A stretch of 11,487 nucleotides of DNA from Planctomycetales bacterium. GTDB taxonomy: Bacteria > Planctomycetota > Planctomycetia > Pirellulales > Thermoguttaceae. The notes beneath the pieces are model-generated. The model saw only the letters and a list, made by a program, of their open reading frames with translations. It was not told the DNA's origin and made no database searches. The translations under genes and the position numbers were made by a program. The stretch spans positions 1-11,487 of the forward strand of contig SKZG01000090.1 of assembly GCA_007127495.1 (NCBI GenBank). The letters are read 5' to 3'. How positions within the stretch are numbered: the stretch's first letter is position 1; every line of letters starts with the position of its first letter. Below are positions 5-10,999 of the stretch, piece by piece.

Positions 5-1216
5 ATGTACCTCGCACTCATCCAGTCAGGCATTCTCCTTGTCTCGGTCAGCGTCCTTAGGGCGGAGCCGGTCGAGTTCGAAGCGGAGCTTGCCGATGGG
101 CGCAGGCTGGTCGGAGCCGCTGTCATGCTCGATTCCAAGAACCTTACCCTGGGCACCGTCGACGGCCCGATGTCGCTGCCCACGGACGAGTTGATGTCCC
201 TCTCGGCCCGAGCCCCCGCGGCGGCACCCGCCAAAGCGCCCGAGGTCTGGGTGCGCCTCGTCGACGGTTCCAGTGTGGCAGGGGCGAAATGGACGCTCGA
301 GGGCGATGCGTCCCGCATCACGCTCCTCAACGACCGGGTGACGGACCTTCCGCGCCGCGCGATCGGGTCGGTCCGCTTCAGCCCGGCAACCGGAGCGCTC
401 GCGGAACAGTGGGCTCGCCTCGTTGCGATGCAGCGCGACGGCGACATCGTGGTCGTCCGCAAGGGCGATCACCTCGACTTCTTGCGCGGTGTCATCCGAT
501 CAGCAGGCGAAGAGTCGATCGCATTTGACATGGATGGCGATCTGCTGCCGATTCGGCGGAGCAGGTTGTTTGGGGTTATCCTGTTCCGGCCCGCCGGACG
601 CGAATTGCCTGCCGCCGTCGGCCGCATTACCGATCACACCGGATCGGAATGGTCGGTTCAATCGCTTGCCTTTCCGGGGGAACTGCAGTGGACCACCCCG
701 GCGGGCGTGACAGTGAGCCAATCGCTGACGTCGGTGGTACATATCGATTTTTCCGTCGGGAAGGTGGTGTACCTGGCCGACCTTGAGCCACAATCGGTCG
801 ACTGGCAGCCGTTCTTTCCCATGGATACCGAGTTGCCCTCGCGGAATGAGTTCTTTCGGCCCCGGCGTAACCGTGGCCTGGTGGCCGACACGTTGAGGCT
901 GGGCGGCGTCGAATACGAGCGGGGGTTGTCCATGCATAGCCGGTCCGAGGTGGTGTATCGACTGCCGGACGAGATGACGCGTCTTAAGGCAACGGCAGGA
1001 ATCGACGACCGCGTCCGCCCGCATGGCAATGTCGTCTTGATCATCCGTGGCGACGGGGCAATGCTGTTCGAAGAGACGTTGTCCGGCACGGATCCGCCGA
1101 TGGAAATCGACCTGGACGTCGCAGGCGTGCGCCGTTTGTCCATTCTGTGCGACTTCGGCGAAGGCATGGACGTAGGCGACCACTTGAATTTGTGTAATCT
1201 GAGGGTCATCCGATGA
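5..1216 (+). CDS. Exported NPCBM-domain protein with N-terminal beta-barrel-like repeats
   Basis: The first ~20 residues are hydrophobic and end in VLRA-EP, like a signal peptide, so the protein is probably exported. The n-region has no Lys or Arg and the frame stays open to the window edge, so the true start may lie upstream. Residues ~22-250 hold about four segments with a shared pattern of short strands around an Asp-Gly (for example 24-66, 80-126, 146-196, 203-250), resembling Sm/SH3-like barrels. Residues ~253-403 match the NPCBM domain: VVYLADLEP, then a GLSMHSRSEVVYRL segment, AGIDD, an IIRGDGAMLFEE strand pair, and a closing GDHLNLCNLRVI. NPCBM is a beta-sandwich found beside glycosidase and other carbohydrate-active domains. 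No catalytic domain is visible, so a binding or scaffolding role is inferred. It overlaps the HtrA-like protease gene by four bases. The NPCBM call is confident; the barrel count is tentative. Confidence 0.85.
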   Translation: MYLALIQSGILLVSVSVLRAEPVEFEAELADGRRLVGAAVMLDSKNLTLGTVDGPMSLPTDELMSLSARAPAAAPAKAPEVWVRLVDGSSVAGAKWTLEGDASRITLLNDRVTDLPRRAIGSVRFSPATGALAEQWARLVAMQRDGDIVVVRKGDHLDFLRGVIRSAGEESIAFDMDGDLLPIRRSRLFGVILFRPAGRELPAAVGRITDHTGSEWSVQSLAFPGELQWTTPAGVTVSQSLTSVVHIDFSVGKVVYLADLEPQSVDWQPFFPMDTELPSRNEFFRPRRNRGLVADTLRLGGVEYERGLSMHSRSEVVYRLPDEMTRLKATAGIDDRVRPHGNVVLIIRGDGAMLFEETLSGTDPPMEIDLDVAGVRRLSILCDFGEGMDVGDHLNLCNLRVIR

Positions 1217-3189
1217 GATATTGTTCGCGTCCATCTTCTCGCCGCAGGAGAGCAGCCCTGAGGGGGCCCGCTTCATTGCAGGCAACCATTTGCCCCGCCC
1301 CCAGTGCAGGGTGCTCCCGGCGATGCCTTGCCCGCGCCCTTGGCACGCTGGCGGTCTTCATTGCAGCCACGGCCTGCCAGGCGGCGACCTCGCCGGTGCC
1401 GCCGGCTGTCCTGGAAGCCGAGGCGGCGCGCATCGCGGTCATGGAGAGGGTGCAAGGTTCCGTGCTGGCAGTGTTCTCGGCCACCGGTCGCGGCGGCGGC
1501 TCCGGTGTGGTCATTTCGCCCGACGGCTTCGCCCTGACCAACTATCACGTCGTGAAACCGTGCGGCAACGCAATGAAATGTGGCATGCCCGACGGCAAAT
1601 TGTATGACGCGGTGATTGTGGGAGTCGACCCGGTCGGCGACGTCGCCCTGATCAAACTCTTCGGCCGCGACGACTTTCCCGTTGCCGAACTGGGCGATAG
1701 CGACCTGGTGCGCGTGGGCGATGAGTGTTTCGCCATGGGCAACCCGTTTGTCTTGGCCACCGACTTCCAGCCCACCGTCACGTGGGGAATCGTCTCGGGA
1801 ACGAATCGCTATCAGTACCCCGCCGGTACGCTGCTGGAATATACCGACTGCATCCAGACCGACGCCTCCATCAATCCGGGCAATTCCGGCGGTCCTCTGT
1901 TCAATGCCGAGGGGCAACTCATCGGCATCAACGGCCGAGCTTCATTCGAAAAACGCGGGCGGATCAACGTGGGCGTGGCCTATGCCATTTCCATCAACCA
2001 GATCAAGCACTTTCTCGGACACCTGCACAGCGGGCGCATTGTCGATCACGCCACCTTGGGCGCAACGGTCGTCGCCGATCTGGACGGGAATGTTGTGGTG
2101 AACGACATCCTGGACGATTCCGACGCGTATCGTCGTGGGCTGCGTTATAACTCCGAGATCCTCCGCTTCGGCGGGCGGACCATCACGACGCCGAACCAGT
2201 TCAAGAATGTACTCGGCATTTATCCGAAGGGATGGCGTGTTCCACTCAGTTTTCGCCAGAGCGGAACGCGGTACGACACGGTGGTTCGGCTGCGAGGATT
2301 GCACGGCGAAGAAGAGCTGATTCGGAATGTATCAGGCTCCGGTCCACCGATCGAACCCTGGGAGCCTAAGCCGCTCCCCCCCGACACCAAACCGGCGCCC
2401 GATCAAGACGAAAACGGCGGTTCCACGCCGGGCAACCAACCCGGCGCCTCGGAGTCGGAGCCCGATGCGCCCAAGCACCGACGCACTCCACCGGGCCCGG
2501 CCCGTCGGATCGCGCTCCCCGAGGAGCCCATGCCGGAGATCGCCAAGCAGCACTTTGAGAGCCGGCGTGGTTTCTCAAACTATTTCTTCAACAAGCGCCA
2601 TCAGCAACGCGTTCTGGAAGCATGGAACGCGACGGGCGATTGGCGCAGGCTGTCCGGCACGTGGACACTCTCCGGCCGGCTTGGCGGCGGTGGCGACTTC
2701 GAGCTGGCCCTCGGCAACGACGGATGCCGTCTGCAATTGCCTGCGGTCGATTTCGATTGGACCGCGTCCGAACACCTGGAGGCCGATCTGGCGCCCCCGC
2801 AAAGTGGCGGACTGTTTCCTGCGCTGTTGCTGTGGCGCCGCCTTGCCGTCGCCGGGCCGGAAGCTCTGGAAAACGTCTACTACGTAGGCACCGCTCCGTT
2901 GCCCGGCCACGACGGTCTCGCAGACGTTCTGGCCGGGCAGCTTCGTGGCGTCGCGGCGTGGTTCTACTACCAACCCGAAAGCGGAGAACTGCTGGCTGTC
3001 GATCTTTTTTCCGACGGCGAAAATGCCGATCCCTGCGAAGTGTTCTTCCGCGACTATCACGTCCACGACAAACGCCGGTTGCCCGCTCGGATTGAGGTGT
3101 ACCATGGCGGCGAACCCTACGCCGAATTCCACATCGACAACTGGCGATTCGGGGAAGACACGCCCGAGACGCCGAAAGGATCACCATGA
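1213..3189 (+). CDS. HtrA/DegP-like trypsin-fold serine protease with PDZ and unknown C-terminal domain
   Basis: Probably an envelope serine endopeptidase. The N-terminus has a long Arg-rich n-region and a hydrophobic stretch (~42-53); cleavage near CQA-A is likely, and Cys55 makes only a poor lipobox. The trypsin-like domain spans ~75-270 with an intact triad: His112 in LTNYHVV, Asp143 in DPVGDVALIKL, and Ser225 in NPGNSGGPL, with oxyanion residues Gly223 and Asn224 also conserved. A PDZ domain (~275-365) follows, then a Pro/Asp/Glu-rich linker (~375-435) and a Trp/Tyr-rich domain of about 215 residues (~440-655) that I do not recognise. DegP-type proteases usually have one or two PDZ domains after the protease, so this tail is unusual. 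The ATG overlaps the previous stop (ATGA), and GAGGG at 1201-1205 lies 7 bases upstream. Of the three HtrA-like proteins in this operon, only this one looks catalytically competent. Confidence 0.92.
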   Translation: MRYCSRPSSRRRRAALRGPASLQATICPAPSAGCSRRCLARALGTLAVFIAATACQAATSPVPPAVLEAEAARIAVMERVQGSVLAVFSATGRGGGSGVVISPDGFALTNYHVVKPCGNAMKCGMPDGKLYDAVIVGVDPVGDVALIKLFGRDDFPVAELGDSDLVRVGDECFAMGNPFVLATDFQPTVTWGIVSGTNRYQYPAGTLLEYTDCIQTDASINPGNSGGPLFNAEGQLIGINGRASFEKRGRINVGVAYAISINQIKHFLGHLHSGRIVDHATLGATVVADLDGNVVVNDILDDSDAYRRGLRYNSEILRFGGRTITTPNQFKNVLGIYPKGWRVPLSFRQSGTRYDTVVRLRGLHGEEELIRNVSGSGPPIEPWEPKPLPPDTKPAPDQDENGGSTPGNQPGASESEPDAPKHRRTPPGPARRIALPEEPMPEIAKQHFESRRGFSNYFFNKRHQQRVLEAWNATGDWRRLSGTWTLSGRLGGGGDFELALGNDGCRLQLPAVDFDWTASEHLEADLAPPQSGGLFPALLLWRRLAVAGPEALENVYYVGTAPLPGHDGLADVLAGQLRGVAAWFYYQPESGELLAVDLFSDGENADPCEVFFRDYHVHDKRRLPARIEVYHGGEPYAEFHIDNWRFGEDTPETPKGSP

Positions 3190-4301
3190 CAAAATCAGCT
3201 TCATTTGACATGGCGAGCGATTCCCCGAACTGCCGGCTCGGGCTTGGCTCGCGGGGCGGCTTCAGGTTGGTCCAGCGCATCTTGATCGCGCTCCTGACGG
3301 CTATGGCTGCGGTTTCCTCATCTGCCGGGGACACACTTCCCAATATCATCGAGGACGCTCAGGCCAAAATCGTGAAGATATATGGCGCCGGCGGATTTCG
3401 GGGGATGCAGGCATACCAAAGCGGCATACTCATTTCGCCCGATGGTTATATTTTGACCGTCTTCAGCCACGTGCTCGATACCAACTACATAACGGCGGTC
3501 GTGCATGACGGGCAGCGTTTCGATGCGACATTGCATGGCGCCGATCCACGTTTGGAAATTGCCCTGCTGAAAATCGACGCGACCGATCTGCCCCATTTCA
3601 AACTCTACGAAGCCGTCGAGGCCGACGTAGGAACCCGCGTCATCGCGATGAGCAACCTCTTCGGCGTGGCCATGGGAAACGAGCCGGCCAGCGTGCAGCG
3701 GGGCACGATTGCCGCGCGCACCAACCTCCAAGCCCGTCGCGGCCAGTTCGAAACCGCCTATCGCGGGCCGGTGTACGTGCTCGATGCCACAACGAACAAT
3801 CCCGGAGCTGCAGGCGGGGCACTGCTCACCGTGCGAGGCCAGTTGCTCGGCGTTCTCGGGAAGGAACTGCGGAACGCGCAGAATCACACATGGCTCAACT
3901 ATGCGCTGCCGATTGCCGAAATGGAGGCGGTGATTGCCCAAATACAATCCGGGGCATTCGCGCCGTCCGCGGAGATTTCCGGAGCCGCCAAACCGGAACT
4001 CGCCTATTCGCTCGAACGGCTGGGAATTCGCCTCGTGCCGGACGTGCTCGATCGTACACCGCCGTTCGTGGAATACGTGCGCGAGGGCTCGCCGGCAAAC
4101 AAGGCAGGCATTCAATCGGACGATCTGGTGCTGCTCTTGAACGATCAGCTCATCCAGTCGTGCTCCGCGCTCCGCGAGCAGTTGGAATATGTGGACTTGC
4201 ATGACGAAGTCAGGCTGACGGTCCTGCGCGGCCGCGACGTGCCCGAACTACGCGAGGTCATTCTGACAGCCGCCCCTGAAACCTTCAGGAACTTGCCATG
4301 A
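3186..4301 (+). CDS. HtrA-like pseudoprotease with one PDZ domain (Ser to Ala)
   Basis: The fold is that of an HtrA protease, but the triad is broken. After a 31-residue n-region and hydrophobic segment (~32-46, cleavage near SSA-G), the trypsin-like domain covers ~50-255. The GILISPDGYILT strand is conserved and His95 lies in TVFSHVLD, one residue later than the usual spacing. The Asp position in DPRLEIALLKID is Glu124. The nucleophile motif NPGNSGGPL reads NPGAAGGAL, so the serine is Ala209 (GCA at 3810-3812) and the oxyanion Asn is also Ala. A PDZ domain follows (~276-360). No extra C-terminal domain is present. The start overlaps the previous stop by ATGA, with AAAGGA at 3175-3180 five bases upstream. 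The clean reading frame and preserved fold motifs argue for a maintained non-catalytic protein rather than a decaying gene. A regulatory or substrate-binding partner of the upstream protease is inferred. Confidence 0.9.
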   Translation: MTKSASFDMASDSPNCRLGLGSRGGFRLVQRILIALLTAMAAVSSSAGDTLPNIIEDAQAKIVKIYGAGGFRGMQAYQSGILISPDGYILTVFSHVLDTNYITAVVHDGQRFDATLHGADPRLEIALLKIDATDLPHFKLYEAVEADVGTRVIAMSNLFGVAMGNEPASVQRGTIAARTNLQARRGQFETAYRGPVYVLDATTNNPGAAGGALLTVRGQLLGVLGKELRNAQNHTWLNYALPIAEMEAVIAQIQSGAFAPSAEISGAAKPELAYSLERLGIRLVPDVLDRTPPFVEYVREGSPANKAGIQSDDLVLLLNDQLIQSCSALREQLEYVDLHDEVRLTVLRGRDVPELREVILTAAPETFRNLP

Positions 4302-6277
4302 AAACACCGACACCGCTTTGCACGATAGGGCGACTTGCCGCGGCCGTCCTGCTAGGCATCGTCGCCGCGCCCCTACCCGCCCGCGCCGCCGAGGAACTTG
4401 GCGCTCTCGAGGAACTGGCTTTCCGGGCGGCGACGGCACGCGTGGCGCCGTCCGTGGTCCGTATTGAAACCCTCGGTGGTTTAGAGCGGGTAGGCCAGGT
4501 GCTGTTCGGCCCCGGCCCCACGACGGGGCTCGTGGTGGGTGAGAATGGCTACATCGTTTCCAGCGCCCTCAACTTTCGCCACCGGCCGGCTTCCATCCTC
4601 GTTCGCTTGTCCGACGGTACGCGCAAGCCTGCGAGGCTTGTCGCCACCGACCAGAGCCGCATGATCGTCCTGCTGAAGATTGACGTCGATGCGCCGCTCG
4701 CGGTACCCGAATTTGCGTCTTCCGAGGAGCTTCGAGTGGGCCAATGGGCCCTGGCCCTTGGCCGCGCGTTTGAAAGCGACGAACCCAACGTGGCGGTCGG
4801 CATCGTTTCGGCCCGAAACCGCGTGTGGGGCAAGGCCGTGCAGACCGACGCCGCCGTGTCGCCAAACAACTACGGCGGCCCGCTGATCGATATCGCCGGT
4901 CGGGTCGTGGGAATCCTTGCACCGCTTTCGCCCGAGGGCGATGATGAGATGGCCGGGTATGAATGGTACGATTCCGGCATCGGCTTCGCCGTCCACGCTG
5001 ATCAAGTCCTTCGCGCCCTGCCGCGTCTAAAGGCGGGTGAGGACCTCCATGCGGGGCTTCTCGGGGTGAACCTCCGGGGTGGCAACCCGTCCGTATCCGA
5101 GACCATCGTGGTCAACTGTCATCCGAACTCGCCCGCCCAACGTGCCGGACTGAAGGCCGGCGACAAGATCGTGGAGGTTGACGGGCGCGCCGTCGAACGT
5201 ACGGCCGAATTCCGCGAGGCGATGGCGCGATGCTACGCCGGCGAGTCGGTTCGCGTCACCGTCGCTCGAAACGGCGAGCGATTCGAACGTGAGCTGGAAC
5301 TCGTTGCGAAACTATCGCCTTATGAGCATCCGTTTCTGGGGATCCTTCCCATGCGCGAAGCGGTGGCCGGCGGCGGCGTCGCGGTTCGCTATGTCTACCC
5401 GGAAAGCCCCGCGGCTAAAGCCGGCGTCCAACGCGGCGACATCCTGGTAGCCATGGCCGGCGAGGCGCTTCCCGGGGCTGCGGCACTTCGAAACGAACTG
5501 GCCGAACACCAACCCGGCGCCGAAGTCCAAATTCCCCTCTTACGTAACGGCAAGACGCGGGACGTCGCCGTGACGCTCGGCCGGCTCCCCGAGTCGGTCC
5601 CAAATGAGACGTTGCCGCCTGCACGTGCCCACCAGAAGCCGCCCCAGCCGGACGCTGCCGGCGGTCGCCGCGTTTCCATAAAGGTGCCCGAGTTTCCCAA
5701 TGAAGTGTGGGCCTATCTGCCCGAAACGTATCGCCCCGATACTCCACATGGGCTCGTCGTATGGCTGCACGGGCCGGGGGGATTCCAGTGGGATGAATTG
5801 CTGGCGCAATGGAAGCCGCACTGCGATCGTAACGAGTGGATTCTCCTGGCGCCGAAGGCCGTGGATTCAAGGAGATGGGATAGGATCGAACTACCGCTCA
5901 TACGGAAGCTCATCGATCAGGCATCAGCCGATTACTCGATCGATCCAGCACGCATTGTTCTGGCCGGTTACGAGTCCGGCGGCGCCGTGGCTATGGTTGC
6001 GGCAACGCAGAACCGCGACGTGATTCGCGGTGTTGCCGTCATCGACGGGCCCTTGGCGGCGCAACTCGGGCCCAATGAGCCCCTTCAGCGGCTGGCGTTC
6101 TACGTGGCGACGTCGCCGCAGTCGCGCCATGCCAAGATCATCCAGAGTACCATCGAACGGCTTCGTGAAGCCAAGTACCCAGTGACCGTCAGGCGCCTCG
6201 GCGAGACCTCGCACCCCCTGGCTCCGGAAGAGCGGGCCGAGCTTTCCCGCTGGATCGATGCATTAGACCAACTGTGA
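4298..6277 (+). CDS. HtrA-like pseudoprotease with two PDZ domains fused to a degenerate alpha/beta-hydrolase domain
   Basis: A signal peptide (hydrophobic ~12-26, cleavage near ARA-A) directs export. The trypsin-like domain (~35-240) keeps its framework (GENGYIVSS, LSDG, LLKID, SGIGFAV) but lacks the triad: Leu91/Asn92 stand at the His position, Met122 at Asp, and Tyr192 at Ser (SPNNYGGPL; TAC at 4871-4873). Two PDZ domains follow (~252-336 and ~345-430), each with the hallmark SPA-x-x-AG-x-x-x-GD pattern. After a Pro-rich linker, ~458-659 resembles the carboxylesterase/PHB-depolymerase type of alpha/beta hydrolase: VVWLHGPGGF for the first strand and oxyanion loop, VLAGYESGG at the nucleophile elbow, and a late SHPL carrying His639. 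The elbow puts Glu559 where Ser is expected, and no GxxD acid loop is seen before the His. Both enzyme domains therefore look inactive. AGGA at 4287-4290 is 7 bases before the ATG, and the ATGA overlap couples it to the gene upstream. Confidence 0.9.
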   Translation: MKTPTPLCTIGRLAAAVLLGIVAAPLPARAAEELGALEELAFRAATARVAPSVVRIETLGGLERVGQVLFGPGPTTGLVVGENGYIVSSALNFRHRPASILVRLSDGTRKPARLVATDQSRMIVLLKIDVDAPLAVPEFASSEELRVGQWALALGRAFESDEPNVAVGIVSARNRVWGKAVQTDAAVSPNNYGGPLIDIAGRVVGILAPLSPEGDDEMAGYEWYDSGIGFAVHADQVLRALPRLKAGEDLHAGLLGVNLRGGNPSVSETIVVNCHPNSPAQRAGLKAGDKIVEVDGRAVERTAEFREAMARCYAGESVRVTVARNGERFERELELVAKLSPYEHPFLGILPMREAVAGGGVAVRYVYPESPAAKAGVQRGDILVAMAGEALPGAAALRNELAEHQPGAEVQIPLLRNGKTRDVAVTLGRLPESVPNETLPPARAHQKPPQPDAAGGRRVSIKVPEFPNEVWAYLPETYRPDTPHGLVVWLHGPGGFQWDELLAQWKPHCDRNEWILLAPKAVDSRRWDRIELPLIRKLIDQASADYSIDPARIVLAGYESGGAVAMVAATQNRDVIRGVAVIDGPLAAQLGPNEPLQRLAFYVATSPQSRHAKIIQSTIERLREAKYPVTVRRLGETSHPLAPEERAELSRWIDALDQL

Positions 6278-7476
6278 GCGTCATGGATTTCAAAGAAAAT
6301 ACGTTTGCGTACGACTTCATCGCACCGGGTCGGATCGCGTTTGGCTGGGGGCGCCGTGCCGAAGCCGGCACCCTCGGGGCGACTCTTGGCCGTCGAGCAG
6401 TGGTGTTCTGCGGGCTGCCCGACGAACAGGCGGCCGTCGTCTTGCCGGAAATCGCCGACTCGCTCCACGCCAGTCAAATTGACATGCTCGAAGCCGGAGC
6501 CATCGACCATGAACCTGAGGCGGCCGACGTCGATGAGGCCGCCGCCGGCCTGCATGAACTGGGCGCCGGGGCAGGCGACTTCATCCTGGCGGTTGGCGGC
6601 GGGGCAACCATCGATCTTGCCAAGGCCGTGGCCGCCATGGGGGTCCACGCTGCAAATGGCAAAGTGGCCGACTACCTGGAAGGCGTAGGCCGCGGCTACA
6701 CGCTCCACCGGGACCCCCTGCCGGTCATGGCCCTGCCCACCACCGCCGGCACCGGGGCCGAGGCCACGTACAACGCGGTCATCTCCAATTACGATCCTCC
6801 GTGGAAGAAGAGCCTCCGCGATCCTCGCCTGATGCCTCGTGTGGCACTGGTTGACCCGGAGCTGTGCGTGACCGTTCCCCCGGCCATTACGGCTGCCAGC
6901 GGTATGGACGCCGTAACGCAATTGATTGAGAGCTACATTTCGCGCAAGGCGCAACCCATTCCACAGGCGCTGTGTTTGCAGGGTTTGCGTCTGGCTATCC
7001 CGGCCATTGTCGAGGCGGTCGAGAACGGCACCTCGCGCCGGGCGCGCGAGGCGGTGTCGCATGCCGCCTTGCTTTCAGGGATGGCCCTTGCCAATTCCGG
7101 CTTGGGGATGGCCCACGGCGTGGCTCCGGCCCTCGGCACGCACTGCCGACTTCCACACGGCATCGCATGCGCGATCATGCTGCCTGCGGCGTTGCGAATC
7201 AATCGCGATGCCCGCCGCGACGAGCTTGCCCACATGGCTCACGTGCTGTTCGGAACTCCCTCGCGGCAATCGCCCGATGCGGCGGTGGAACGCCTTATCG
7301 ACGAGATCGACCGTTTGCTCGCTCGCGTGGGTATTTCCGCGCGGCTCTCCGAGTCGGGCGTGAAGCCCGAGCACATTCCGGCCATCGCCAAAGATTCGTT
7401 CGGCAACAGCATGCGAGGCAACCCGGTGGAACTCAACGAGCAACAGTTGGCTGAGGTCCTCCAGGGCTTGCTATAA
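6274..7476 (+). CDS. Iron-type (group III) alcohol dehydrogenase family protein
   Basis: A 400-residue NAD(P)-dependent dehydrogenase of the Fe-ADH family, normal in length. The dinucleotide-binding GGGATIDLAKAVAAM (108-122) and the family signature PTTAGTGAEAT (155-165) are clear. Metal-ligand positions are Asp212 (GMDAVTQ), His281 (GMAHG) and His295 (LPHG), but the second expected ligand, the His of the D-x-x-x-H pair, is Gln216 (CAA at 6919-6921). Related enzymes reduce aldehydes or oxidise alcohols with Fe2+ or Zn2+; the substrate cannot be told from sequence. No signal peptide is seen, so it is cytoplasmic, unlike the four exported products before it. The GTG start gives a GTGA overlap with the preceding stop, matching the other junctions, though no clear Shine-Dalgarno precedes it. 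An ATG at 6283 is an alternative that would shorten the protein by three residues. Confidence 0.92.
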   Translation: MSVMDFKENTFAYDFIAPGRIAFGWGRRAEAGTLGATLGRRAVVFCGLPDEQAAVVLPEIADSLHASQIDMLEAGAIDHEPEAADVDEAAAGLHELGAGAGDFILAVGGGATIDLAKAVAAMGVHAANGKVADYLEGVGRGYTLHRDPLPVMALPTTAGTGAEATYNAVISNYDPPWKKSLRDPRLMPRVALVDPELCVTVPPAITAASGMDAVTQLIESYISRKAQPIPQALCLQGLRLAIPAIVEAVENGTSRRAREAVSHAALLSGMALANSGLGMAHGVAPALGTHCRLPHGIACAIMLPAALRINRDARRDELAHMAHVLFGTPSRQSPDAAVERLIDEIDRLLARVGISARLSESGVKPEHIPAIAKDSFGNSMRGNPVELNEQQLAEVLQGLL

Positions 7477-9287: not shown

Positions 9288-9959
9288 CTACCACCGGTCT
9301 TCCGGACGACCGAGGATTTCCGCCAACACGATGGCCTGGCGCAGGTTGGCTGGCTCGGATAACATGGCGTACAGCCCGGCGGCCGGTGCGACGTCGCGCG
9401 GCGAGTCCGGCTGGGTGGCTGCAAAGATGCTCGCCAGTTTCACTCTCGGTGCATCGGCGGCCGGTGCGGGGCTGGAGGCAAGCGCCGGCGTCGACATATC
9501 GCGGGGCGTACCGGATCCTTGGGTTTGCCGCGCCACGGCGGCTCGCTGGGGGCCTTGTTGCATCGTGCGGCGCGCCAACTGCTCGGCTTTGGCTCGTTGC
9601 CTGGCAGCCTGGAGGGCTTGCTCGCGCAGCACCTCGCCGGGGACGGGCCGTTGCTGCCCTCCGACCACCTCCGCCTGCATGGCGCGCTCACCGCGATGCT
9701 GTCGTGCCGGCGGGGCTGCTTCCCGCTGTGGTTGGCCGCGCCGCGCCGCCTTACGCAGGAAATCGCCAATCTCGTCTTCCAGACCGCCGCCTTGCGCCGG
9801 CTGCTTGGGAGCCGGCCGCTTCGGAGGTTGCGGCCGGCCCTTCTGAGCCATCTTGCCAAATGCCTGGACCGCCCAAATGACGATGGCAATCACGAGGAAG
9901 ACCACGAAACCGATAACATCCTCGAGGCCGTTGGCCAGCAGTGCGGGCAGGCCGTTCAT
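9288..9959 (-). CDS. Single-span membrane protein of unknown function, coupled to floA
   Basis: A 223-residue protein I do not recognise as a named family. It has one strong transmembrane segment (~15-33, [19 protein letters not shown]). A Pro/Lys-rich stretch (41-56), a short amphipathic helix ([12 protein letters not shown], 61-72), and a long Gln/Arg/Ala-rich, probably disordered or coiled region (~75-150) follow. The C-terminal block (~192-223) reads [28 protein letters not shown] and looks like a compact, conserved helical motif. Its ATG overlaps the floA stop (ATGA), and a strong AAGGAG at 9967-9972 sits 7 bases upstream inside floA, so the two are probably made together. A role as a membrane partner of the flotillin is inferred only from this arrangement. 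The low-complexity middle would make homology searches unreliable; the C-terminal block is the useful query. Confidence 0.82.
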
Positions 9960-10999
9960 CCCGTGACTCCTTGGTTAGCGGCCGGGGCGATACCCGCCTT
10001 GGCGATCGAAGTCCGCATTTCGGTATCGGCCTGCACATTGCGCAACTTATAGTAGTCGAGAATGCCAAGCTGCCCCTCTTGGAAGGCTTGAGCGATGGCC
10101 TTGGGAACTTCGGCCTCCGCCTGAACGACCTTCGCGCGGTTCTCTTCGATTGCGGCAATCATCTCTTGCTCCTCGGCCACGGCCATCGCCCGGCGTCCTT
10201 CGGCATTGGCCTGGGCCACCCGCATGTCGGCCTCGGCCTGGTCGGCCTGGAGCCGCGCGCCGATATTCTCGCCCACGTCGACGTCGGCGATGTCGATCGA
10301 TACGATCTCGAAGGCGGTTTGCGAATCCAAACGGCGACCGAGCACTGTGGTGGAAATGCGATCGGGGTTCTCAAGCACCTCGCCATGCGCCTTCGCCGAG
10401 CCAATGGCGCTGACGATCCCCTCACCCACCCGGGCAACGATGGTTTCCTCGGTGGCCCCGCCGATCAATCGCTGGAGATTGGCGCGAACCGTCACCCTCG
10501 CCTTCACCTTCAGTTGAATGCCATTCTGGGCGATCCCGTCGAGCGAATCGCGCGGGCCGCCACGGGCAGGGCAATCGATCACTTTCGGGTACACACTCGT
10601 TTGCACCGCTTCGAGCACGTTGCGCCCGGCAAGGTCAATCGCCGCGGCCTGCTTGAAATCCAGGTCGACGATTTTCGCCTTCTGGGCAGCGATCACCGAA
10701 CGGATCACCAGTGGCACGTTGCCGCCGGCCAGGTAGTGCGCCTCCAGGGCTTTTGAGGTAACCCCCTGCTCGTCGCCAATTCCCGCCTGCACGGCCATGA
10801 TCTTGCTGCGAACAATGACCGCCGGGCTAACCTTGCGGAAGGTCATGCCGAGCAGGTCGAGAATGCCGATGCCCGCCCCGGTCGTGAACGACTGGATCCA
10901 GAACCGAAAATAGGTGGCAAAGACAAAGAACGCCACCAAGCCCACGATGACGACTACAAACGCGCCAACCACCGATACGATGAACCACAAGTCTTCCAT
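9956..10999 (-). CDS. floA: Flotillin-like membrane-microdomain scaffold FloA
   Basis: A 347-residue SPFH/band-7 protein of the FloA (YqfA) type, which forms oligomeric scaffolds in functional membrane microdomains. The N-terminal hydrophobic segment (~5-29) is followed by [17 protein letters not shown] (43-59) and by AVQAGIG and [11 protein letters not shown] (69-75, 85-95), all characteristic of this family. The SPFH core continues to ~245 (ILDLL through [19 protein letters not shown]). An Ala/Glu-rich coiled coil (~248-310) and the closing [18 protein letters not shown] complete it. Length is close to the usual ~330. The start has AAGGA at 11007-11011, 7 bases upstream, and a good promoter lies further up. 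It is the first gene of a - strand unit with the 223-residue membrane protein and a dehydrogenase. FloA is commonly linked to an NfeD-type protein; none is seen here. Confidence 0.95.

Follow-up and report, generated by a model that had tools for sequence, protein, structure and literature searches.

The 11,487-nucleotide contig SKZG01000090.1 of the Planctomycetales bacterium assembly GCA_007127495.1 (GTDB order Pirellulales), hereafter referred to as the window, carries three adjacent genes for HtrA-type proteins, named A, B and C. The first encodes an intact protease, while the other two, judged by the alignments of their relatives, are members of two old, fixed pseudoprotease families. With moderate confidence, we propose that A, B and C form one envelope unit, in which a single active HtrA-type protease is accompanied by two dedicated pseudoproteases and which is encoded at the 3' end of a MoxR/BatA-like operon. 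The source is a draft genome of 3.17 Mb in 592 contigs with 84% completeness, of which the window represents one contig (C241).

One intact catalytic triad and two dead sites

Inspection of the window revealed open frames for all three genes and overlaps of four nucleotides at the N-A, A-B and B-C junctions, N being the gene directly 5' of A, as well as between C and the following alcohol dehydrogenase gene. The Pfam family Trypsin_2 was recognised in each protein above its cut-off of 27.6 bits (A 117.6, B 70.9, C 75.5), in agreement with an earlier interpretation made from the letters alone (the sequence-only reading), which had described three adjacent, coupled trypsin-fold genes with open frames. 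Scores for the NCBIfam model degP_htrA_DO stayed below its cut-off of 416.2 bits (A 206.1, B 117.5, C 211.4), and signal peptides of A, B and C were assigned by eye. Across the loci collected, start and stop codons overlap by four nucleotides at N-A in 90 of 159, at A-B in 87 of 167 and at B-C in 96 of 175 cases.

Catalytic residues were counted in a 528-row alignment containing 172 A, 175 B and 181 C relatives with a full protease domain, from which rows below 180 bits or 85% domain coverage had been removed (3/175 A, 1/176 B, 5/186 C). Protein A (Trypsin_2, E = 9.7e-34) retains the triad at the residues named by the sequence-only reading, His112, Asp143 and Ser225, and His-Asp-Ser is intact in all 172 relatives. 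The same holds for 27 of 27 other HtrA-like paralogues of four genomes, taken from the best 30 of 57 matches, the remaining three of these 30 being A itself. A hidden triad in B or C was looked for in the alignment and found in 0/175 B rows, whichever placing of the catalytic His was used, and in 0/181 C rows; Ser at the nucleophile column was seen in 0/181 C rows, while the GG directly after this column is present in every row of both families.

Regarding the individual positions of B, the earlier assignment of Glu124 and Ala209 held, that of His95 probably does not. Ser94 occupies the catalytic-His position in the 528-row alignment and in an ungapped alignment to 22kg, whereas 4yo1 and 4ynn, the chains with the best scores, place His95 there by means of a gap. 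Overall, the catalytic-His position is probably not that of His95; the column next to Ser94, to which this residue belongs, reads His in 41 of 175 rows. Three loci, L180 (G008:C12), L181 (G047:C3) and L182 (G026:C778), represent second, divergent copies of the set beside a standard one, and the B proteins of L180 and L182 have Ser at the nucleophile position and no His.

For C, the earlier reading of Leu or Asn at the His position together with Met122 and Tyr192 was borne out. The His position falls on Leu91 or Asn92, of which the 528-row alignment takes Leu91, and the stretch around Tyr192 is strongly conserved. A protease plus PDZ fold was predicted with high confidence for C alone. Databases label this dead protein 'serine protease Do', and the annotation therefore misleads.

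Ancestry and selection

A quick tree, with supports from the Shimodaira-Hasegawa-like approximate likelihood-ratio test (SH-aLRT) only and a sample of 45 sequences per family, resolved A, B and C as one clade each (SH-aLRT 96, 99 and 98). These are old, separate clades, so that the stepwise loss of the triad put forward by the sequence-only reading is unsupported. Its further proposal of maintained pseudoproteases instead of decay agrees with the fixed dead sites, the conserved set and the ratio of nonsynonymous to synonymous substitution rates (dN/dS), which was inspected for values near 1 in the pseudoprotease genes and found to be well below.

Protease-domain dN/dS medians were 0.19 for A (1697 pairs), 0.19 for B (150 pairs) and 0.21 for C (152 pairs), from pairs that are non-independent and in many of which dS is high; in 16 pairs comparable for all three, the values were 0.17 for B and 0.23 for C versus 0.13 for A. 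B and C are under purifying selection, at most slightly weaker than that on A. A whole-gene run included over-long frames in some loci, and one whole-gene value of 0.91 for B (L250/L244) was discarded, as the 903-codon frame crosses the region of another gene.

Distribution and gene order

Searches of 146 genomes of the order (thresholds: C, E ≤ 1e-40; B, E ≤ 1e-20; A, E ≤ 1e-40) recovered C in 133 genomes and both B and A in 135. Conservation of the one-active/two-inactive set, which the sequence-only reading had named as a point to check, was pronounced: all three genes occur in 132 genomes, 11 have none clearly, and three drafts are partial (A only in G065, C only in G067, A and B in G096). 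Among the 11 genomes without a clear trio is one assembled as a single contig (G017), and weak B or A matches in three trio-less genomes (G141, G095 and G082) resemble ordinary paralogues. In 17/17 genomes lacking a clear C, the matches to A (best E = 2.4e-37) and B (best E = 7.2e-19) are no better than expected of ordinary paralogues.

Gene order and strand were identical in 172 of 172 parsed loci with all three genes, a count biased to intact loci because the 120 regions from the order were picked by hand from genomes in which the three genes mostly share a contig (116 genomes, with most of the fragmented ones set aside). A further 40 regions from the class and 20 from other classes were picked through C alone, and A-B-C follow in a row in 31/40 and 18/20 of these, respectively; L192 and L235 are one and the same contig. 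The 20 places outside the class come from a search of the phylum, in which 48 out of 246 genomes matched at E ≤ 1e-36; weaker matches may be ordinary HtrA proteins. One of the two exceptions among them is cut by a contig end (L236), while the other differs in order: L254 (G484:C21, 6160-9412) encodes a dead protease, a C-like dead protease and a live protease, which again amounts to one live and two dead members. The C-like protein of L254 has Ala, not Tyr, at the nucleophile position, and its live protease has two PDZ domains and no LolA/LolB-like domain. This locus may represent an early stage of the set.

In six loci, A and B are joined in single frames of 924-1126 amino acids, three of them from one genus and one each from three further families. 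The A part retains His-Asp-Ser in 6/6 and the B part lacks the triad in 6/6 of these fusions, which are derived, since G127 (L146) of the same genus is unfused. The phylum of the relatives is almost certainly Planctomycetota. The set was also found on a contig labelled Candidatus Nealsonbacteria (L193, JABMRB010000139.1), and one C protein (P0035) is labelled Patescibacteria; both are probably mis-binned planctomycete contigs.

Position within a conserved operon

Among 167 loci in which the upstream sequence exceeds 1.5 kb, 153 have a homologue of N directly 5' of A. Two further conserved genes precede it, X1 (142/158 loci) and X2 (88/104 loci). No Pfam family was recognised above cut-off in the X1 proteins scanned, with a hint of tetratricopeptide repeats in L250. 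To the extent that gene neighbourhood can tell, a larger conserved operon has the trio at its 3' end and also comprises genes for a MoxR ATPase, a DUF58 protein, a BatA-like vWA protein and an NPCBM protein. In 20 stretches, each reaching 19.9 kb upstream of A, same-strand genes follow in a usual order: PQQ_2 (13), squalene-cyclase-like (8), MoxR AAA ATPase (15), DUF58 (15), BatA-like vWA (16), a weak vWA (16), a family-less protein (16), X2 (16), X1 (17) and N (18). The assignments are exemplified by L285 (AAA_3 of the MoxR type, E = 1.3e-62; DUF58, E = 2.7e-48; BatA, E = 6.1e-13). Deviating arrangements comprise L302, with MoxR and DUF58 placed between N and A, L296 and L299, which retain only the end of the operon, and two genomes with scattered genes (L303 and L304), in which operon genes are absent upstream.

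The genome of the window carries X1 and part of a BatA-like gene on another contig, C379, whose end is reached some 100 bases past X1. As the window contig begins at N, the operon is very probably cut by the contig end. All 12 genomes tested that have the trio also have X1 (E ≤ 3.5e-33), while 19 trio-less genomes gave no match at E ≤ 1e-8 in 12 cases, a match to the C-terminal part only in six and a near-full-length match in one. This last match, at G239:C127:1221-2177 (4.3e-24), is an exception to joint loss, as no clear trio is present in G239.

Accessory domains

The sequence-only reading had assigned PDZ domains to all three proteins, which was right for B (one) and C (two) and needs qualification for A. 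No Pfam PDZ family was detected in the window A protein at E ≤ 0.01, yet the protein aligns with a DegQ PDZ region, and PDZ_2 was found at E ≤ 0.1 in 10/10 A relatives scanned, above cut-off in four. Taken from these comparisons, A probably has a PDZ domain, although a divergent one. A sequence search of the PDB with its C-terminal domain gave a best E of only 0.31; a subsequent fold comparison assigned the LolA/LolB fold, and a lipid or lipoprotein input through this LolA/LolB-like C-terminus is proposed.

The C-terminus of C resembles a hydrolase, with the polyhydroxybutyrate (PHB)-depolymerase-type model NF050058 scoring under its cut-off (Table 1). Among 145 long C proteins, the hydrolase-domain nucleophile is Ser in four and another residue in 141, and a GxSxG motif occurs anywhere in the last 260 residues in 12. 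Judged by these residues, the domain is mostly dead, and a few of the esterase domains may be live. Neither this second dead enzyme domain nor the LolA/LolB-like domain of A and the MoxR-vWA operon had been noticed in the sequence-only reading. A short form of C without the hydrolase domain also exists; 41 of 186 C frames are below 600 amino acids, some of them cut by contig ends.

Table 1. Coordinates of genes, domains and catalytic positions in the window; residue counts refer to the 528-row alignment.
Feature	Position	Strand	Remark
Gene N, exported-looking, C-terminal NPCBM	5..1216	+	NPCBM E 6.7e-25; sits at contig start
Gene A, HtrA-type protease (active) with a putative divergent PDZ and a LolA/LolB-like C-terminus	1213..3189	+	658 amino acids
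A His112 codon	1546..1548	+	His in 172/172
A Asp143 codon	1639..1641	+	Asp in 172/172
A Ser225 codon	1885..1887	+	Ser in 172/172
A residues 438-658, LolA/LolB-like domain	2524..3186	+	fold comparison
Gene B, pseudoprotease with one PDZ	3186..4301	+	371 amino acids; Trypsin_2 E 2.5e-19, PDZ E 1.1e-8
B Ser94-His95 codons, catalytic-His position	3465..3470	+	column: Ser 147, Asn 14, Gly 8, His 1 (n = 175); placing differs between alignments
B Glu124 codon, catalytic-Asp position	3555..3557	+	Glu 98, Asp 38 (n = 175)
B Ala209 codon, nucleophile position	3810..3812	+	Ala 118, Pro 20, Gly 12, Ser 2 (n = 175)
Gene C, pseudoprotease, two PDZ, C-terminal alpha/beta-hydrolase-like domain	4298..6277	+	659 amino acids
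C Leu91-Asn92 codons, catalytic-His position	4568..4573	+	Leu91 column: Phe 136, Tyr 25, His 1 (n = 181)
C Met122 codon, catalytic-Asp position	4661..4663	+	Met 74, Lys 26, Gly 25, Asp 3 (n = 181)
C Tyr192 codon, nucleophile position	4871..4873	+	Tyr in 179/181
C residues 455-659, esterase/PHB-depolymerase-like domain	5660..6274	+	NF050058 55.8 bits, cut-off 150; 3wyd E 4.7e-4
C Glu559 codon, at active-esterase Ser position	5972..5974	+	ungapped to GHSMGG of 3wyd
Iron-type alcohol dehydrogenase	6274..7476	+	start lies within the end of C (GTGA overlap)

Comparison with known systems

HtrA proteases are generally regarded as self-activating homo-oligomers, and HtrA proteins also act as chaperones. 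Close known systems include DegS and RseB of the sigma-E response and the chloroplast proteins Deg5/Deg8. In Deg5/Deg8, different HtrA proteins are found in one assembly, as is proposed here, although both of these proteins keep their catalytic residues, unlike B and C.

The Bat (Bacteroides aerotolerance) operons resemble the operon described above in having MoxR, DUF58 and BatA-like vWA genes in a row. The function of Bat itself is described as unsettled (PMC3557215). The present operon differs in the addition of three HtrA-type genes and the NPCBM gene and, in some stretches, of squalene-cyclase-like and PQQ_2 genes. The families BatD and BatE were not detected at E ≤ 0.01 in ten operon proteins scanned with Pfam.

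A functional parallel is provided by MamE and MamO of magnetotactic bacteria, the former an active HtrA protease and the latter a pseudoprotease with a trypsin fold, both encoded in the same gene island. MamO activates MamE non-catalytically, being required for proteolysis by the live partner, and binds metal (PMC4794232). The system described there has a single pseudoprotease, and MamO carries a TauE-like transporter domain, whereas two pseudoproteases are present in our set (PMC4794232). Further differences from MamE/MamO are the LolA/LolB-like domain on A, the hydrolase domain, mostly dead, on C and a surrounding operon of the MoxR-vWA type; the NCBIfam models for MamE and MamO gave at best 138.1 and 59.6 bits, far under the cut-off of 800.

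MoxR-vWA ternary conflict systems share MoxR-vWA pairs, planctomycetes among their hosts and inactive trypsin-domain effectors, and they include a beta-propeller subtype (PMC7159879). Their effectors vary, whereas the gene set is fixed here. For the operon MoxR, the match to AAA_3 (E = 1.3e-62) was much stronger than that to bpMoxR (E = 3.3e-10); PQQ_2 was matched among the operon proteins at E = 2.5e-30. Overall, pseudoprotease-HtrA pairs and Bat-type operons are already known. For a fixed set of one live and two dead members with this domain make-up and gene neighbourhood, no description turned up in the full-text literature searched, a scope that excluded subscription journals and preprints.

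Favoured reading and alternatives

If A, B and C indeed form one unit, all three would be exported, and B and C would join A in a mixed HtrA-type assembly via their protease domains. With their PDZ domains and blocked active sites, B and C could bind envelope proteins or peptides and either switch A on or pass it substrate, while the LolA/LolB-like domain of A may supply a lipid or lipoprotein input and the MoxR-DUF58-vWA proteins might work on the assembly, or signal to it, from across the membrane. Envelope proteins would then be cleaved in a regulated manner, as opposed to general clean-up, which would be open to the other HtrA paralogues of the same genomes. Such an arrangement would constitute a new way of controlling an envelope protease, kept across a bacterial phylum, and would offer a possible downstream activity for the unexplained Bat-type MoxR-vWA genes; it also makes testable the general question of pseudoproteases as obligatory subunits of live relatives. 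A bolder form of the proposal, which we put forward only tentatively, would be a transmembrane machine combining a cytoplasmic MoxR-DUF58-vWA chaperone module with an exported hetero-oligomeric HtrA of one catalytic and two obligatory pseudoprotease subunits. In such a machine, lipids or lipoproteins would be sensed as cargo by the LolA/LolB-like domain of the live subunit, and the active site would be gated or loaded by the dead subunits, one of which has a further dead enzyme domain.

A mixed complex had also been put forward by the sequence-only reading, and we infer a physical A/B/C complex from comparative genomics. Natural A-B fusions make contact between A and B more likely and offer no such argument for contact with C; together with the co-retention of the genes where they lie apart, they also make a mixed complex more likely. 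The relevant genomes are nine from other families of the class, in which A (E ≤ 2.3e-116) and B (E ≤ 2.3e-58) are retained in 9/9, with A adjoining B in seven and the three genes in different places in G163 and G250.

Several observations weigh against the proposed unit. In these same nine of the 40 class loci, C lies apart from A and B, so that co-translation is not required, and in one genome of the order (G125) C is found on a different contig, away from its end. What ties the MoxR-vWA genes to the trio appears to be their neighbourhood only, and constraint on B and C is somewhat weaker than on A. The column of A position 171, which we take to be part of the HtrA2 trimer interface, holds Trp in 111/172 A and 156/181 C proteins and Arg in 114/175 B proteins, and B may by this residue lie outside a canonical trimer. 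In addition, physical interaction between MamE and MamO was not detected, and the transporter domain of MamO was needed (PMC4794232).

Some of these points would fit B and C acting in the envelope on their own, as peptide binders or chaperones, with targets in common with A and no mixed complex, an alternative that we regard as doubtful yet deserving serious attention. The separate location of C in nine genomes and of all three genes in G163 and G250, as well as the confident fold prediction for C alone, would be expected of separate bodies, but A-B fusions in four lineages and the strict all-or-none retention within the order would not. A repurposed scaffold, in which the dead sites of B or C gained a new ligand, comparable to the metal of MamO, and in which Tyr192 and the dead hydrolase domain of C form a site with control of A being secondary, seems unlikely. 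The presence of Tyr192 in 179/181 C proteins within a strongly conserved stretch and the MamO precedent (PMC4794232) speak for it; however, no ligand motif was recognised, and the hydrolase domain is missing from the short form of C.

Catalysis of another kind in B or C, through a displaced Ser or His or another nucleophile, or a working esterase domain in C, is very improbable. It could draw on the His of the neighbouring column in 41/175 B proteins and, in long C proteins, on GxSxG in 12/145 and an aligned Ser in 4/145, but Ser precedes the invariant GG in only 2/175 B and 0/181 C rows, and the hydrolase nucleophile is not Ser in 141/145. The least probable alternative, ordinary decay of redundant HtrA copies following tandem duplication, for which loss of catalytic residues would be the expected first step, was rejected, as far as sequence can refute it, on the basis of dN/dS around 0.2 and fixed substitutions, the frames being open, the same substitutions recurring throughout the phylum sample with each family forming one clade, and the fold of C being predicted confidently.

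Neighbouring genes

The iron-type alcohol dehydrogenase gene at 6274-7476 was considered as a member of the module and rejected, as a homologue lies close downstream in 1 of 154 loci, namely the window itself. Further 3', the window encodes a leucine-rich-repeat protein, a 3-hydroxyisobutyrate-dehydrogenase-like protein and the flotillin-like protein FloA. FloA and a gene whose frame overlaps its end occupy positions 9288-10999 on the minus strand, opposite to the operon.

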